Shown here: positions 3,348 to 27,857 of the stretch, in pieces
Numbering within the stretch: the stretch's first letter is position 1
Layout: each line of letters opens with the position of its first letter
Assembly (NCBI RefSeq): GCF_036287235.1
Contig: NZ_CP142850.1
Coordinates: 150,001-214,000, forward strand
Direction: 5' to 3'
DNA from: Exiguobacterium sp. 9-2
GTDB lineage: Bacteria; Bacillota; Bacilli; Exiguobacteriales; Exiguobacteriaceae
DNA: 64,000 bases
Made by a program: the position numbers and the translations under genes
The notes under the pieces: model-generated
Databases searched by the model: none
Told to the model about the DNA's origin: nothing
Seen by the model: only the letters and a program-made list of their open reading frames with translations

Positions 3348-3373
3348 TGAAACATTTATCGGTCGACTTCGTA
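3348..3373 (+). promoter_or_regulatory. SigW autoregulatory promoter
   Basis: TGAAAC at 3348-3353 and CGTA at 3370-3373 are exactly 16 bp apart. This is the Bacillus extracytoplasmic-function promoter form used by SigW. It lies 37 bp before the sigW start, as expected for autoregulation. Confidence 0.85.
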
Positions 3374-3409: not shown

Positions 3410-3973
3410 GTGGAAGAAACGACACTACGCTTAATTGAGCGAGTGAAACAGGGAGACCGTGATGCTTTTGCGGCACTTGTTGATCTATATAAGGAAGGTG
3501 CCTTTCTTGTGGCTTTCCGGGTCTTGCGCGATCGAATGGAAGCGGAGGATGCGACACAAGAAGCCTTCATCCGTGTATTTACGAAGATCGATTCGTATAA
3601 TGCACAATGGAAGTTCCGGACTTGGTTATACCGAATCGTTACGAACGTATCGATTGACCGATTACGGAAAAAGAAACCTGACTATTCTCTTGATGCTGAG
3701 ATGTCAGGTACTGAAGGACTGACATTGTATTCACAACTCGAAAGCAAGGACACCTTGCCGGAGGACCAAGTGGTCGATAACGAGCAACGAAGTGAAGTCG
3801 GGGATGCGATTGCAGCTTTACCAGAAAAATACCGCGTCCCACTCGTCCTGAAATATATAGAGGATCTTTCACTAAAGGAAATCAGTGAAATGATCGAATT
3901 ACCTGTCGCTACTGTCAAAACTAGAATTCATCGTGGACGGGAAGCGCTGAAGAAGCATTTTGCCAAACGATGA
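3410..3973 (+). CDS. sigW: ECF RNA polymerase sigma factor SigW
   Basis: SigW directs RNA polymerase to genes of the cell-envelope and antimicrobial-peptide stress response. The 187-residue protein has sigma region 2 (about residues 12-85, with DATQEAFIRVFTKI and the region-2.4 stretch WKFRTWLYRIVTNVSIDRLRKK) joined by a short acidic linker to region 4 (about 125-187, with LPEKYRVPLVLKYIEDLSLKEI and the HTH VATVKTRIHRGREALKKHF). The start is GTG at 3410, 8-9 nt after a GGGGGG ribosome site. The promoter at 3348-3373 matches SigW's own recognition pattern, and rsiW follows 16 bp downstream. Arginase immediately upstream is the Bacillus arrangement. This is a confident family call. Confidence 0.93.
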   Translation: MEETTLRLIERVKQGDRDAFAALVDLYKEGAFLVAFRVLRDRMEAEDATQEAFIRVFTKIDSYNAQWKFRTWLYRIVTNVSIDRLRKKKPDYSLDAEMSGTEGLTLYSQLESKDTLPEDQVVDNEQRSEVGDAIAALPEKYRVPLVLKYIEDLSLKEISEMIELPVATVKTRIHRGREALKKHFAKR

Positions 3974-3989
3974 GAAGGAGGAACTCACC

Positions 3990-4610
3990 ATGTCACGAGA
4001 GCATGTACATGAACGGATTCAGGATTATTTAGATCAAAACCAACCACCTGAGGAATTCGAGCGATTGGAAGCAGAGTTACGGGAAGCGGACGCGATGGAC
4101 GAGTTCGAAGAGTATCGACTCCTTGATGCTCGACTGCGTCAACTTCCAGCGCCCAAATTATCGGCAGATTTTACATCCCGCGTGCTGGCACAATTGCCCG
4201 ACCAGGTGGATACGCCGAGCGCTGCTTTACTGCACCAACCGCAACCGTCCCGTTTTGGAGGGAAGATGAAGCAATACCCATTGCTCGCGGCGGCGGCTGT
4301 TTTCTTACTTTTGTCGATCGGTAGCCTTGGTGGTTATATGGCACAGGAAGAACATGACTTATCTTATACAAATGCACCAGGCATCGTCGCTCAAAATGGT
4401 GAGGTCGTCGTGCCAAAAGGCGTCACGGTCGATCAAGATCTCTATGTCGAAGGCGGGAACGTCCGAATCGAAGGGAAAGTTAATGGCGACGTCATGACCG
4501 TTGACGGGAAAGCTTACACGGCGAGTGCCGGTAGCGTGACCGGAGAAATCAAGGAAATTGATCAATTATTCGAACGCGTTTGGTACGGAATCAAACGTCT
4601 ATTTCAATAA
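3990..4610 (+). CDS. rsiW: Anti-sigma-W factor RsiW, lacking the zinc-finger cysteines
   Basis: RsiW holds SigW inactive at the membrane until it is cut by PrsW and RasP. The start is ATG 3990, 8-9 nt after AAGGAGG, giving 206 residues. A cytosolic N-terminal part (1-95) precedes one membrane segment (about 96-117, Ala-rich). An outside part of about 90 residues carries stretches close to Bacillus subtilis RsiW as I remember it: SADFTSRVLAQLP at 58-70 and TASAGSVTGEIKEI at 177-190. The oddity is that the His-x3-Cys-x2-Cys motif of zinc anti-sigma domains is absent. By position the ligands would be E29, A33 and M36, and the protein has no cysteine at all. It is translated from the same transcript as sigW. 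Confidence 0.88.
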   Translation: MSREHVHERIQDYLDQNQPPEEFERLEAELREADAMDEFEEYRLLDARLRQLPAPKLSADFTSRVLAQLPDQVDTPSAALLHQPQPSRFGGKMKQYPLLAAAAVFLLLSIGSLGGYMAQEEHDLSYTNAPGIVAQNGEVVVPKGVTVDQDLYVEGGNVRIEGKVNGDVMTVDGKAYTASAGSVTGEIKEIDQLFERVWYGIKRLFQ

Positions 4611-4686: not shown

Positions 4687-5550
4687 TTGGTGAATTACTT
4701 CAGCTGGCAACCACTTCAATTTCAATTGTTGAAACTGGGAGAAAACGTACATTGGTACGATTATATTAATGATGTGATTGATATCGCGGTTGTGACGTTC
4801 GTTATTTACCGTCTCATGATCATCGTCAAAGGAACAAAAGCGGTCCAGCTCATTAAAGGGATTTCGGTCATTTTGATCAGTTGGTTCCTGAGTGGCTTTT
4901 TTGGACTCAAAACACTTCAATTCTTACTCAATCAAATTATCACCTATGGGTTACTGGGGATCATCATCATCTTCCAACCCGAACTCCGGCGTGGACTGGA
5001 ACACTTAGGACGAACGAGTAAATTCTTCTCACGTAGTGCGATCAGTGATGAAGATGAACAAGTTCGAATCGTCGATGCGCTCGTATCGTCTGCCCAGTAC
5101 ATGTCAAAACGCCGTATTGGAGCACTCGTGACGATTGAACGTGAGACAGGACTGAGTGAATACGTAGAGACGGGCATTCCGCTTGGTTCACAAATCACGA
5201 GTCAGTTGCTGATCAACTTATTCATTCCGAATACACCATTACATGATGGCGCTGTCATCGTCCAGCAAGGCAAGTTAGCAGCTGCCGCTTGTTACTTACC
5301 GTTGTCAGAAAGTGCACATATCTCAAAAGAGCTTGGAACACGTCACCGCGCTGCAATCGGTGTCAGTGAAGTAACGGATAGTGTTACGCTCGTCGTCTCG
5401 GAAGAAACGGGTGGTGTCTCACTCGCCATCAATGGACGTCTGTACCGGGAACTCGATGAAGAATCCTTACGGACGAAGTTGCTTGAGACGATCGTTAAGG
5501 TCGAACAGACGAATACTTCCTTCTTGAACTGGATGGGGGCGAAAAAATAA
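4687..5550 (+). CDS. cdaA: Diadenylate cyclase CdaA (c-di-AMP synthase)
   Basis: CdaA joins two ATP into cyclic di-AMP, the messenger that controls potassium and osmolyte balance and wall homeostasis. About 287 residues: membrane segments near residues 30-47, 57-75 and 82-97, then the DAC catalytic domain (about 100-270) with the DGA motif at 187-189 and RHR at 219-221, both required for catalysis. The start is TTG 4687 or the adjacent GTG 4690; the GGGGG site at 4676-4680 fits GTG slightly better. The last base of its stop codon is the first base of the cdaR start, so the two are translationally coupled. The order cdaA-cdaR-glmM is the conserved Firmicutes operon. Confidence 0.95.
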   Translation: MVNYFSWQPLQFQLLKLGENVHWYDYINDVIDIAVVTFVIYRLMIIVKGTKAVQLIKGISVILISWFLSGFFGLKTLQFLLNQIITYGLLGIIIIFQPELRRGLEHLGRTSKFFSRSAISDEDEQVRIVDALVSSAQYMSKRRIGALVTIERETGLSEYVETGIPLGSQITSQLLINLFIPNTPLHDGAVIVQQGKLAAAACYLPLSESAHISKELGTRHRAAIGVSEVTDSVTLVVSEETGGVSLAINGRLYRELDEESLRTKLLETIVKVEQTNTSFLNWMGAKK

Positions 5551-6836
5551 TGTTCGAAAAATGGTTCAATGAACGATGGTTTTTACGCATTGTTGCGGTC
5601 GTCTTAGCCGTCATGTTGTATTTGATGGTGGCAGGTTCGAATACGACAGGAAAGAGTGACGCCGCTAGTCTGTTGCCGATCGCAGGTCAAGGTTCGACGA
5701 AATTTGACGTGCCGGTCACGGTCCAGTATGATGAATCGCAGTGGGTCGCCTATAATATTCCAAATACGATGGAGGTAACCGTTAAAGGTCCATCGAGTAG
5801 CTTGACGATGCTTCGGCTTGTTCAGGATTTTGGGTTATCGATTGATTTAAAAGGACTTGACCCTGGCTATCATCGTGTCCGTGTCACAGCAACTGGCTTC
5901 GGAAAAGATGTCGAGGTGACGCCAAAGCAGGAGACGATTGAAGTCTTCCTCGATAAGAAGATTACAAAGGAAGTACCGGTACAAGTCGCCTTACTCAATA
6001 AAAACAAAATCGCTGAAGGATATGTCGCTGGGGAAGCGCAACCGAATCAACAAACCGTTGAAGTTACGGGAGGCGCAGAGAAGTTACAGGCGATTTCAGC
6101 GATCCAAGTACCGATCGATGTAACTGGTCGGGCAGAGACGTTTAAAGAGACGTTCAATGCCAAAGCGACCGATGCGAACGGGAATACGATCAATGCATCT
6201 TATCAACCGGAACAACTAGAAATCACAGTACCGATCTATAAGGAAAGTAAGACGGTACCGATCAATGTGCAGACAAAAGATGACGTCAAAAAAGGATATA
6301 CCGTCGTCAAGATCGTTCCCGTTACGACGGAAGCTCGTCTATATGGAACAAAAGAAGAGTTAGAGCGTATCGGTTCCGTTGATACGGAAGCGGTCTCGCT
6401 CAAAGGATTGACGAAGACGACAGAAAAAACCGTCAAACTTGTTGAACCGGAAAATGCGACAGCGATGGATCCGACACAGGTCACCGTCAATATCGTTGTC
6501 GAAAAGGAAAATGCGAAGTCGACGACGGAAACCGTCGAGGATCGGGCAGAGAAAACGATTCCCGGTGTGACGGTCACGTTAAATGGGTTTGATGAATCGA
6601 AGTATACGATTGATTACAACCAAACGATTGATGTCGTTGTCCGTGGGAAAGAATCTGATTTAGCATCGATCGATGCGACGGATATCAAAGCGGTCATCGA
6701 TGTGACGGGACTAAAAGAAGGAACGCACGGATTGCCGATTTCGTATCAGACGTCAAAAGCCTTTGATGTCCTGCGTCCGGATAATATGGATGTCACGCTA
6801 AAAGCTGTTCCGCGGACATCCGTTCCGACCAATTAA
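5550..6836 (+). CDS. cdaR: CdaA regulatory protein CdaR (YbbR-domain protein)
   Basis: CdaR binds CdaA at the membrane and tunes c-di-AMP synthesis. The 428-residue product has one N-terminal membrane anchor (about residues 11-28, RIVAVVLAVMLYLMVAG) and then four YbbR repeats on the outer face, each ending in a phrase such as VTVKGP, VEVTGG, ARLYGTKEEL or VVVRGKESDL. It overlaps the cdaA stop by one base and lies 29 bp before glmM. A predicted extracellular chain with no cysteine agrees with the family. Function is from family knowledge. Confidence 0.93.
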   Translation: MFEKWFNERWFLRIVAVVLAVMLYLMVAGSNTTGKSDAASLLPIAGQGSTKFDVPVTVQYDESQWVAYNIPNTMEVTVKGPSSSLTMLRLVQDFGLSIDLKGLDPGYHRVRVTATGFGKDVEVTPKQETIEVFLDKKITKEVPVQVALLNKNKIAEGYVAGEAQPNQQTVEVTGGAEKLQAISAIQVPIDVTGRAETFKETFNAKATDANGNTINASYQPEQLEITVPIYKESKTVPINVQTKDDVKKGYTVVKIVPVTTEARLYGTKEELERIGSVDTEAVSLKGLTKTTEKTVKLVEPENATAMDPTQVTVNIVVEKENAKSTTETVEDRAEKTIPGVTVTLNGFDESKYTIDYNQTIDVVVRGKESDLASIDATDIKAVIDVTGLKEGTHGLPISYQTSKAFDVLRPDNMDVTLKAVPRTSVPTN

Positions 6837-6865: not shown

Positions 6866-8221
6866 ATGGGTAAGTATTTTGGAACTGACGGCGTACGCGG
6901 CGTCGCAAACGTAGAATTGACACCGGAACTAGCATATCGCCTCGGTCGAACAGGTGGTTACGTGTTGACGAAACACGAAAGCACACGACCAAAAGTCTTG
7001 ATTGGACGCGATACACGTGTTTCTGGTCAAATGCTTGAGAACGCACTCATCGCTGGTCTTTTATCAATCGGTGCAGAAGTCATGCGTCTTGGTGTCATCT
7101 CGACACCGGGTGTCGCGTATCTGACAAAAACGATGGATGCCACAGCGGGAGTCATGATTTCTGCATCGCACAATCCAGTTGAAGATAACGGAATCAAGTT
7201 CTTCGGTTCAGATGGCTTCAAGCTCGATGACGCAACTGAGCTTGAAATCGAAGCATTGCTCGATGAAGCAGAAGATACATTACCACGTCCAGCCGGAAAA
7301 GAACTCGGTTTCGTTCACGATTACTACGAAGGTGCACAAAAATATCTTCATATGCTTCGCCAGACATCGGATGAAGATTTCTCAGGCATCCATGTCGCGA
7401 TCGACGGCGCACACGGTGCGACGTCAAGCCTCGCACCACGCCTATTCGGTGACTTGGAAGCAGAAGTATCGACGATCGGTACAACTCCGAACGGACTCAA
7501 CATCAATGATGGTGTCGGTTCGACACACCCAGAACATCTCGCTGCCTTCGTTAAGGAAAAAGGCGCAGATGTTGGTTTATCGTTTGATGGAGACGGCGAC
7601 CGCTTGATTGCAGTCGATGAGAACGGTGATATCGTCGATGGCGATAAAATCATGTTCATTTGCGGAAAATACTTGAATGAACTTGGTCGTCTGAAAGACA
7701 ACACGATCGTTGCGACGGTCATGAGTAACCTCGGCTTCCATAAAACTGTTGAAGAAAACGGGATGACGGCACTTCAGACAGCAGTCGGTGACCGTTATGT
7801 CGTCGAAGAAATGCGTAAGAACGACTACACGCTCGGTGGTGAACAGTCGGGGCATATCATCTTCATGGATTACTCAACGACAGGGGACGGCATGTTGTCA
7901 GGCGTCCAGTTGTTGCAAATCATGAAAGCGACAGGGAAAAAGTTATCGGAACTCGCAGCTGAGATGCCGATCTTCCCACAACGTCTCGTTAACATCCGTG
8001 TCTCAGACAAAAATGGTGCAATGAGCGGTCCTGCCGTACAAGCGATCATTGCAGAAGTCGAAGCAGAGATGGCAGGCAACGGACGTATTCTCGTTCGTGC
8101 GTCAGGAACAGAACCACTCGTTCGTGTCATGGCAGAAGCCCCGACACAAGAAGCGTGTGATGCATACGTCGAGCGGATCGCGAACGTCGTTCGTGAGAAC
8201 TACGCGTTACAAGAAAACTAA
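6866..8221 (+). CDS. glmM: Phosphoglucosamine mutase
   Basis: GlmM converts glucosamine-6-phosphate to glucosamine-1-phosphate on the way to UDP-GlcNAc and peptidoglycan. The 451-residue protein has the normal length. It shows the N-terminal FGTDGVRG signature, the phospho-serine loop SASHNP with catalytic S101, the magnesium loop DGDGDR (near 244) and the C-terminal phosphate-binding [12 protein letters not shown]. The ATG at 6866 follows GAGGAA at good spacing. In related bacteria GlmM also binds and restrains CdaA, in keeping with its place in this operon. A terminator follows at once and glmS, the preceding step of the same pathway, is next. Confidence 0.97.
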
Positions 8222-8595: not shown

Positions 8596-8632
8596 CTCTT
8601 CAGGGAAATACTTGTAAATGGAGAGATGTAAC

Positions 8633-10429
8633 ATGTGCGGAATCGTAGGTATGATTGGACAGGTCAACACGAAAGAAATTTTATTAAAAGGTCTCGAGAA
8701 GCTCGAGTACCGCGGCTATGACTCGGCAGGTCTTGCGTTCGTCAACGACGGCGTCCAAGTCCACAAAGAAGTAGGCCGGATTGCTGCGCTACGCGAAGTC
8801 GTTCCTGCAGATGCAGACGGCACAGTCGGAATCGGACACACACGCTGGGCGACACACGGTGTCCCAAGCGTACCAAACGCGCACCCGCACCAAAGTGCGT
8901 CAACACGTTTCACACTCGTGCACAACGGTGTCATCGAGAACGATGAGCAGTTGAAAGCAGAATTGAATGTCGATCTCCTCAGCGACACGGATACAGAAGT
9001 CATCGTTCAGATGATCGAAAAGAACTTCAACGAGACAGGTGATGTCGCGGAAGCATTCCGTCAAACACTCCGCGTCTTGCACGGTTCGTATGCCCTCGCA
9101 TTGATCGATGCTGAAAATCCAGACGTTTTGTACATTGCGAAAAACAAATCACCACTTCTCGTTGGTCTCGGTGACGGGACGTTCAACGTCGTCGCATCAG
9201 ACGCAATGGCAATGTTACAAGTAACGGATCAATTCGTTGAGCTGCATGACGGTGAGATGATCATCTTGACGCGTGATAGCGTTACGATTCAAGATCTCGA
9301 CGGTAACGTTCGAGAGCGTGAAGCATATACGGCTGAAATCGATGCATCAGATATCGAAAAAGGAACGTATGCGCACTACATGCTCAAAGAGATGGATGAG
9401 CAACCAGCTGTCATCCGCAACATCGTTCAACAATATCAAAATGAAGCAGGCGACATCACACTCGACCAATCGGTCCGTGATCTCGTACTCGGTCGTGACC
9501 GTGTCTACATCATCGGTTGCGGAACAAGCTATCATGCTGGTTTGATTGGGAAACAGTTGATTGAACAAATCGCAGGCATCCCGACAGAAGTGCACATCTC
9601 TTCTGAGTTCGGATACAACATGCCATTATTGACAGAGAAACCACTCTTCCTCTTCCTTTCACAATCAGGTGAAACAGCGGATAGCCGTGCGGTTCTCGTT
9701 GAAGCGAAGAAACTTGGTCACCCGGCACTGACGATCACGAACGTTCCAGGATCAACATTGTCACGTGAGGCGAACGCAACATTATTGCTCCACGCGGGTC
9801 CAGAAATCGCCGTTGCTTCAACAAAAGCGTATACAGCTCAAATCGCTGTCCTCGCTGTTCTTGCGTTTGACCTCGCTCAAGCGAAAGGGGTTGCTGTCAA
9901 CTTCGATCTCATGAAGGAACTCGGTAAAATCTCAAGTGCGATGGAATCGGTCATGTCTCAAAAAGATCGTTTCCAAGAAATCGCGACAGAGTACTTGTCT
10001 GAATCACGTAACGCGTTCTTCATCGGTCGCGGACAAGATGCATACGTCGGGATGGAAGGTGCATTGAAACTCAAAGAGATCTCGTATATTCAAGCAGAAG
10101 GATATGCGGGTGGCGAGCTCAAGCACGGTCCGATCGCTTTGATCGAAGATAACACACCGGTCATCGCACTCGTGACACAACCACACGTTCACCTCAACAA
10201 CCGTGGGAACGTCAAGGAAGTCGTCGCGCGTGGTGCAAACGCGTGTGTCATCGCAGCAGAAGGTCTTGAATTGCCGACGGATGCCTTCGTCATCCCAGCA
10301 GTCGAGCCACTCTTGTCACCGCTCTTGTCTGTCTTGCCACTTCAATTGATTTCATACTACGCGGCACTCGGTCGCGACTGTGACGTCGATAAGCCACGTA
10401 ACTTGGCGAAGTCAGTAACGGTTGAATAA
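8633..10429 (+). CDS. glmS: Glutamine-fructose-6-phosphate aminotransferase (isomerizing)
   Basis: GlmS makes glucosamine-6-phosphate from fructose-6-phosphate and glutamine and commits carbon to amino-sugar and wall synthesis. I place the start at ATG 8633, not at the in-frame ATG 8618, because the second residue must be the N-terminal nucleophile Cys2 (MCGIVGMIG) and GGAGAG at 8620-8625 serves as its ribosome site. The 598-residue protein has the class II glutaminase domain (to about 240) with GHTRWATHG, followed by two SIS sugar-isomerase domains containing [14 protein letters not shown] and [19 protein letters not shown]. The C-terminus [15 protein letters not shown] is family-typical. 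It is controlled by the upstream ribozyme. Confidence 0.98.
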
Positions 10430-26931: not shown

Positions 26932-27774
26932 ATGAAATGGAAGGGAAGAGAACGGAGTTCGAACGTCGAGGACCGGCGGGGAATGGGTGGGAAAGGAATC
27001 GCCGGTATCGGCGGTGGTGTCGGGATCATCCTGCTGATCGTCATCACTTTGATGGGCGGTAATCCAACTGAACTACTCGGAGACTTAACCGGTGGGGATC
27101 AGCAAAATACGACGTATGAGGAAACAGCGCAGGAAAAAGAAGCAGCGGACTTCGTCTCCGTCGTCTTGGCCGATACGGAACGAGTCTGGACGAAAGAATT
27201 TAAAGAAGATGGTAAGACCTATAAAAAACCGACACTCGTCTTATATACGGATCAAGTTAGTTCGGCTTGCGGACAAGCAGGGAAGTCCGTCGGTCCCTTT
27301 TACTGTCCCGGTGATCAGAAATTATACATTGATTTAAGCTTTTATGATGAACTGCAGACGAAATACGGAGCACCGGGCGATTTTGCGATGGCGTATGTCA
27401 TTGCGCATGAAGTAGGGCATCATGTCCAGACGTTACTTGGAAAATCGGATGAGATCATGCCACTTCGAAAGCAAATGAGTGAGGAGAAGTTCAATAAATA
27501 CCTCGTTCGATTCGAGCTACAGGCAGATTATTATGCCGGCGTATGGGCGCATCACGCGCAAGGAGAAAACTTGCTCGAAGAAGGCGATCTTGAAGAAGCG
27601 TTGACAGCAGCCAATGCTGTTGGGGACGATACGTTACAAGAGAAAGGACAAGGATATGTCGTACCGGAAAGTTTCACTCACGGCACATCGGCGCAACGAG
27701 AGCGTTGGTTCCAAAAAGGCTTTGATAACGGCACGATCGAAGGTGGAGACACATTCAAAGCGAAGAATCTATAA
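26932..27774 (+). CDS. Putative neutral zinc metallopeptidase (YpfJ family)
   Basis: A 280-residue membrane-anchored protein. An N-terminal basic and Gly-rich stretch is followed by one membrane segment (about residues 24-43, GIAGIGGGVGIILLIVITLM). The peptidase-like domain follows on the outer side, with the zinc site HEVGHH at about 162-167 and a downstream FELQADYYAGVWAHH in which E and D may supply further contacts. SACGQAGKSVGPFYCPGDQKLYIDLSFY is the family signature, with two Cys able to form a disulfide. Start ATG 26932 follows AGGAGGAAAG. Substrates are not known for the family. Confidence 0.88.
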   Translation: MKWKGRERSSNVEDRRGMGGKGIAGIGGGVGIILLIVITLMGGNPTELLGDLTGGDQQNTTYEETAQEKEAADFVSVVLADTERVWTKEFKEDGKTYKKPTLVLYTDQVSSACGQAGKSVGPFYCPGDQKLYIDLSFYDELQTKYGAPGDFAMAYVIAHEVGHHVQTLLGKSDEIMPLRKQMSEEKFNKYLVRFELQADYYAGVWAHHAQGENLLEEGDLEEALTAANAVGDDTLQEKGQGYVVPESFTHGTSAQRERWFQKGFDNGTIEGGDTFKAKNL

Positions 27775-27857
27775 AACGAAGTAAAGACATACCTTTTGAA
27801 ACATTTTCCAGTCGTTTCCGTAAAGAAGAGAGAAGGATTCAAAGGGGAGTGTCGAAG

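Follow-up and report, generated by a model that had tools for sequence, protein, structure and literature searches.

The gene directly 3' of sigW in a 64,000-nucleotide stretch of Exiguobacterium sp. 9-2 DNA (contig NZ_CP142850.1, positions 150,001 to 214,000; hereafter the window) raises the question of whether an RsiW-type anti-sigma factor can lack its entire zinc site and remain a functional partner of SigW. In Bacillus subtilis, RsiW wraps around SigW and zinc ties together its three-helix bundle (PMC5358783). The four ligands of this CHCC site (viz. Cys3, His30, Cys34, and Cys37) are all missing from the window protein. The features of the locus are as follows.

3348..3373, + strand: SigW-type promoter motif TGAAAC-N16-CGTA (exact match), likely the auto-promoter of sigW
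3410..3973, + strand: sigW, ECF sigma factor, GTG start, 187 aa (NF007223 and TIGR02948 over cut-off; 5wuq_A, E 1.1e-63)
3990..4610, + strand: rsiW, anti-SigW factor without zinc ligands, 206 aa (open reading frame, gene order, homology)
3990..4199, + strand: cytoplasmic anti-sigma domain of RsiW, residues 1-70 (AlphaFold2 model of residues 1-85; alignments)
4278..4340, + strand: membrane helix of RsiW, residues 97-117, including the Ala-rich stretch (full-length model, mean pLDDT 70.7; sequence)
4350..4607, + strand: extracytoplasmic part of RsiW, with short strands in the model, weakly bactofilin-like, and a C-terminal helix
4687..5550, + strand: cdaA, diadenylate cyclase (DAC PF02457, E 8e-43)
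5550..6836, + strand: ybbR/cdaR (YbbR PF07949, E 6.8e-45)
6866..8221, + strand: PGM_PMM domains, presumably glmM, a name taken from the B. subtilis gene order
8618..10429, + strand: SIS and GATase domains, presumably glmS

Identity of the gene and of its sigma factor partner

The rsiW reading frame begins with ATG, is preceded by AAGGAGG, and starts 16 nt after the stop codon of sigW. It lies before cdaA-ybbR-glmM in the order sigW-rsiW-cdaA-ybbR-glmM-glmS, with all genes on the + strand, an order shared with B. subtilis. The initial annotation had recognised the protein as RsiW from its position after sigW and from features aligning in the RsiW order, and this identification is borne out; the sequence contains both SADFTSRVLAQLP and TASAGSVTGEIKEI as well as the Ala-rich membrane segment. 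When the window protein alone was used as the query against the PDB, no anti-sigma chain was present among the 6 rows returned. For a profile built from 36 RsiW proteins of the family Exiguobacteriaceae, the best PDB sequence match was B. subtilis RsiW (5wuq_C; E 3.3e-5, residues 11-79), and Escherichia coli RseA was the second (E 0.027). The homology to RsiW takes in the cytoplasmic, membrane and outer parts of the protein and, on the basis of this homology and the gene order, the frame at 3990-4610 is the RsiW orthologue.

The partner is likewise of the SigW type. The sigW product scores 295.7 bits with NF007223 (cut-off 209) and 259.2 bits with TIGR02948 (cut-off 243.1), and its assignment as RpoE was rejected because it failed the RpoE model TIGR02939 (118.3 vs. 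236.15 bits). The promoter motif upstream of sigW was found with a consensus that we take to be that of SigW promoters; two exact matches occur in the window, where 0.54 are expected and 9 of 100 shuffled sequences reach two, and in the whole genome the pattern with a spacing of 16-17 has 35 matches, compared with 7 for the reversed control. The second exact match (27797-27822) lies ahead of a short membrane-protein reading frame and just after a gene for a neutral zinc metallopeptidase (26932-27774, PF04228).

In common with B. subtilis RsiW (a zinc anti-sigma, or ZAS, protein; 5wuq/5wur), the window protein has SigW as its probable partner, a single membrane helix, an outer domain, and an acidic residue of helix 1 facing the basic patch of SigW. 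In the B. subtilis complex, helix 1 (D16) meets a patch consisting of K170, residue 174 and R177 (PMC5358783); K170, H174 and R177 are kept in Exiguobacterium SigW, and the acid is kept in RsiW of the family as Asp15 (Glu in the sister genus). Genes for PrsW and RasP are, as in B. subtilis, also present in the genome, both over their cut-offs. For E. antarcticum, sigW expression is described as differing between 0 and 37°C, although the direction of the change is contradictory within the sections concerned, a table and one sentence giving it as cold-repressed and a later sentence as up-regulated (PMC4247613). The outer part of the window protein (4350-4607) resembles Bactofilin (PF04519) below the cut-off (20.1 vs. 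27.9 bits), and such matches at E <= 1 are found in 36/36 RsiW proteins of the family and 53/54 zinc-type proteins, which suggests that a small beta-solenoid-like outer domain is common to RsiW.

Distribution of the CHCC site among RsiW proteins

The family Exiguobacteriaceae was sampled through 38 genomes, 19 from each of two genera. A protein search with the window RsiW found matches in 50 of 61 genomes, its own included (18 from the window's genus with 72-100% identity, 19 from the sister genus with 41-48% identity, and 13 from 13 other families), and the CHCC site was absent in 37/37 of the family proteins and present in 13/13 of the others. With one more genome of the window's species there are 38 family loci, and the whole site is missing in every one of them, in both genera. 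The absence of cysteine from the window protein, pointed out in the initial annotation, is a general property of these proteins; 37 of the 38 are entirely without Cys, the exception (L019) having a single one in the membrane segment. Loss of the Cys pair is thus lineage-wide and not local, as none of the 38 genomes retains it. The named records with the most similar proteins, at identities of up to 100%, belong to Exiguobacterium. A further 25 loci from such named Exiguobacterium strains do not constitute independent evidence, since 22 of them encode proteins identical to those of the survey; the other 3, like 3 loci from outside Exiguobacterium, are not part of the counts.

For a broader comparison, 398 genomes of the class were searched with SigW, of which 234 had a match at E <= 1e-50; most genera are represented by one or two fetched loci, and the sampling is not exhaustive. 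The 140 loci examined comprise the 38 of the family, 95 zinc-type loci, and 7 that were set aside. The zinc-type loci come from 94 genomes (L034 and L054 share one) and from 73 other genera according to a tally of genus labels, and they yield 93 distinct domains after trimming. Among the loci set aside, the wrong frame had been picked in L044, where CHCC was nonetheless seen, and the frame of L137 begins with SCEHC, its start being missing or its frame broken. In the remaining five (L165, L168, L169, L170, and L171), which belong to two families, no RsiW frame was recognised between a SigW-like gene and the cdaA gene after it.

Within the 93 distinct zinc-type domains, Cys34 and Cys37 are each retained in 93/93, and His30 and Cys3 each in 91/93. 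All four ligands are present in 91/95 loci, while the other four loci, from three genera, miss one ligand, which never belongs to the later Cys pair; complete loss of the site was not seen outside the family among these 95 loci. In two of the four, from one genus (L114:649-1281 and L149:638-1270), His30 is replaced by Asn and all three Cys are kept. In the other two (L119:631-1296 and L129:633-1226), the first Cys is absent and a His lies nearby, possibly as a replacement ligand of the kind found in HHCC-type domains; an HHCC site is given for ChrR (PMC5358783). The Pfam domain zf-HC2 separates the two groups in the same manner, with matches at E <= 1 in 0/36 RsiW proteins of the family and in 54/54 zinc-type proteins, the scan covering 54 of the 95 zinc-type loci. 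The zinc fold has not been lost in the lineage generally, since a second anti-sigma factor, with its CHCC site intact, is encoded in the window's genome (L001, C1:2579208-2579291).

The residues of the window protein that face the zinc ligands are R3, E29, either a deletion or A33, and either A35 or M36, depending on the alignment. The initial annotation had placed Glu29, Ala33 and Met36 at the ligand positions. This is one valid alignment and its Glu29 is firm, but when RseA is included E29 again stands opposite His30, a one-residue deletion falls at Cys34, and Ala35 is opposite Cys37; only the His position is therefore unambiguous. At the Cys3 position, the window's genus has Arg and the sister genus Pro.

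Trees of SigW (local support 0.998) and of the membrane and outer parts of 66 RsiW proteins (support 0.906) both recover the family as monophyletic. Support is 0.456 for the branch that links the family with its sister group, which makes any choice of a closest zinc-type relative tentative. From these sequences, one complete loss of CHCC on the stem of the family is the simplest reading. Pairwise dN/dS values for the N-terminal domain, taken only from pairs with 0.2<dS<1.5, have medians of 0.110 in the window's genus (113 pairs) and 0.052 in the sister genus (116 pairs), and the anti-sigma domain is under purifying selection.

Predicted fold and likeness to RseA

The full-length AlphaFold2 model is poor (mean pLDDT 70.7, pTM 0.38), and of the 68 rows that a Foldseek search with it produced at E <= 10, none reached E <= 0.001 and the best 50 contained no anti-sigma chain. 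Residues 1-85 were therefore modelled alone from 122 sequences (mean pLDDT 81.5, pTM 0.56), and this model predicts that the N-terminal domain retains four helices (residues 3-14, 20-32, 36-51, and 61-67). Foldseek returned five rows for the domain model, viz. two chains of RsiW, MucA, RseA, and the kinase inhibitor Sda, with a best E of 0.22. In VIA-align comparisons, Z was 5.6 for RsiW (rmsd 5.6, 69 residues), 4.6 for MucA (rmsd 3.8, 53 residues), 4.3 for Sda (rmsd 1.8, 39 residues) and 3.3 for RseA (rmsd 5.5, 50 residues). The alignment of the family profile to residues 11-79 of 5wuq_C and the four helices of the model mark a domain homologous to the four-helix Class I anti-sigma domains (ASDs), and 4/5 Foldseek rows are ASD chains, though with weak scores. 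As the scores are weak for small helical domains, the unrelated Sda is among the rows, and the alignment behind the model held zinc-type sequences, which partly builds in its likeness to RsiW, the comparison supports a shared fold without proving it. The expectation of the initial annotation that the fold holds without zinc is probably correct, in view of the four predicted helices and the purifying selection.

The N-terminal domain of the family has a measurable likeness to zinc-free RseA. RseA_N (PF03872) matches 35/36 of the family proteins at E <= 1 within this domain (best E 7.3e-6), and it is absent among the best 25 of 57 families listed for 54 zinc-type proteins. The window protein itself is below the gathering cut-off (20.4 vs. 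24 bits), which is passed by 5/398 genomes of the class, all of the sister genus (5/38 of the family) and all at rsiW. At E <= 0.1, the match lies at rsiW in 33/38 family genomes, of which two show an additional weak match at another place, and the other five have no match at this threshold. Outside the family, 26/360 genomes match at E <= 0.1, none over the cut-off; in the 16 of these with a listed sigW place the match is never at rsiW; for nine of the remaining 10 no SigW is listed, and in the other one SigW lies at a place that is not listed. Compared with E. coli RseA, domains of the window's genus have a median identity of 27.5%, those of the sister genus 23.5%, and the zinc-type ones 13.5%.

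This likeness is narrowly localised. Scored with an HMM of four RseA proteins, the window's genus has a median of 9.3 bits, the sister genus 12.6, and the zinc-type domains (92 of 93 scored) 1.3, with overlapping ranges (7.8-10.3, 9.9-23.8, and -1.4 to 10.0 bits, respectively). The gap remains when the four ligand columns are masked (medians 9.9, 7.2, and 0.8) and disappears when the columns of Tyr42, Leu45, Asp46, and Leu57 are masked as well (0.9, 1.0, and 0.6), so that the likeness rests on about four columns. These columns hold Tyr, Leu or Ile, Asp, and Leu in 33/33 distinct family domains, mostly Leu, Thr/Ser, Ile/Val, and Ala in zinc-type domains, and Tyr, Ile, Arg, and Leu in E. coli RseA, which agrees with the family at all but the Asp46 column. 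In profile-profile comparison with RseA, the match probability of the whole family is 45.5; the sister genus by itself reaches 63.7 and the window's genus by itself 3.5, and the zinc-type domains give 1.3. Between the family and zinc-type RsiW it is 97.8. The profiles point to a likeness to RseA that is real but local, the family being overall nearer to zinc-type RsiW than to RseA.

The window protein differs from B. subtilis RsiW in its lack of CHCC, a helix 2-3 loop shorter by one residue, the replacement of His12 by Gln, and the presence of these four residues in place of those of the zinc type. With RseA (1or7) and MucA (6in7), whose systems work by regulated proteolysis, it presumably shares a zinc-free anti-sigma domain; it differs from them in having SigW and not RpoE/AlgU as partner, an RsiW-type outer part, and cdaA instead of rseB as the next gene. 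Tyr42, Leu45, Asp46, and Leu57 sit on helix 3 and the linker that follows, and their change coincides with the loss of the zinc site, a covariation whose sample size is one, as all members of the family derive from one event. We infer that these four substitutions compensate for the missing zinc. The initial annotation had tentatively suggested a dense acidic-hydrophobic helix pattern as the stabilising element; this is not supported, and the comparison singled out these residues instead. Asp46 and Leu57 may reflect sigma binding rather than stability of the fold, since they occupy positions that touch SigW in B. subtilis RsiW. As a group, the substitutions may stabilise the fold or adjust SigW binding.

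Explanations for the loss and its significance

The explanation that we favour, with a probability of roughly 0.6, is that the protein is a true RsiW in which protein packing has replaced zinc. The structural CHCC site would have been lost whole in the common ancestor of the family, probably once, and the three-helix bundle would be held by packing alone, like that of zinc-free RseA and MucA. RsiW of Exiguobacterium would keep SigW inactive at the membrane and would be removed through proteolysis by PrsW/RasP, as in B. subtilis. We infer, from the features that the proteins have in common, that it still binds SigW and that control of SigW release is still proteolytic.

A different explanation, possible although clearly less probable, is that zinc is dispensable in RsiW, the ligands having drifted off neutrally and the helix-3 changes being an unrelated adaptation to a diverged SigW. 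The zinc-free, oxidised SigW/RsiW complex of B. subtilis is indeed described as having the same structure (rmsd 0.8 Å), with binding in the absence of zinc (PMC5358783), and the statement of the initial annotation that the ZAS fold usually needs its ligands is too strong for RsiW; however, the zinc-free form carried a C3-C37 disulfide (PMC5358783), which is impossible in the window protein. Zinc-free class I anti-sigma domains are also reported to be common (about 44%), and zinc and non-zinc forms are mixed within groups AS27, AS19-1, and AS33-1/AS33-2, where, as for Exiguobacterium RsiW, some relatives have the site and others do not; the passages concerned with the RsiW group, AS245, mention no zinc-free branch (PMC7406223). 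The loss of single ligands in four zinc-type loci (L114, L149, L119, and L129) likewise favours dispensable zinc, but the invariant Cys34 and Cys37 of the 93 distinct domains and the lack of any complete loss among the 95 loci outside the family argue against it. There are 27 listed columns at which SigW of the family departs from the zinc type, in favour of adaptation to a diverged partner; these columns are spread over both sigma domains, and SigW co-variation was not used as support for compensation.

The remaining alternatives carry less weight. It is unlikely that the binding mode has switched naturally within this orthologous pair, from the wrap-around of B. subtilis RsiW to an RseA-like sandwich. 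That other side chains still bind a metal, in the Glu/Asp-rich helix 2-3 stretch or through His5/His7 in some species, is very improbable: acidic residues do abound between helices 2 and 3 in both genera, but no candidate ligand set at the four positions is common to both, and within the window's genus the residues His5 and His7 are variable. Slightly less credible still is a recombination that exchanged the N-terminal domain for an RseA-like zinc-free one, for although the RseA_N matches to 35/36 members fall in this domain, the profile comparison places it far nearer to zinc-type RsiW than to RseA (97.8 vs. 45.5) and the likeness is confined to four columns. An error in sequencing, or a recent mutation confined to one strain, is refuted by the absence of the site from 38/38 loci, which come from two genera with 41-48% identity between their proteins and with low dN/dS, and by the retention of both later Cys in all of the distinct zinc-type domains.

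A search of open-licence PMC papers found none in which Exiguobacterium and RsiW occur together, and no zinc-free RsiW was present among the literature matches listed for zinc-motif loss, for sigW of Exiguobacterium, and for RsiW in connection with cysteine or absence of zinc (15 of 238 listed). Zinc-free class I domains were already known. Whether zinc has a structural, sensory or dispensable role in anti-sigma domains has been argued mainly by contrasting one family with another; Exiguobacterium adds a case in which a single orthologous pair, encoded in the same operon, occurs both with the zinc ligands (in the 73 genera sampled) and without them (in one family). Under the favoured explanation of zinc replaced by packing, RsiW of Exiguobacterium probably still works, perhaps through differently packed helices, and the few substitutions that accompany the loss narrow the residues that may stand in for the metal to a short list open to testing.
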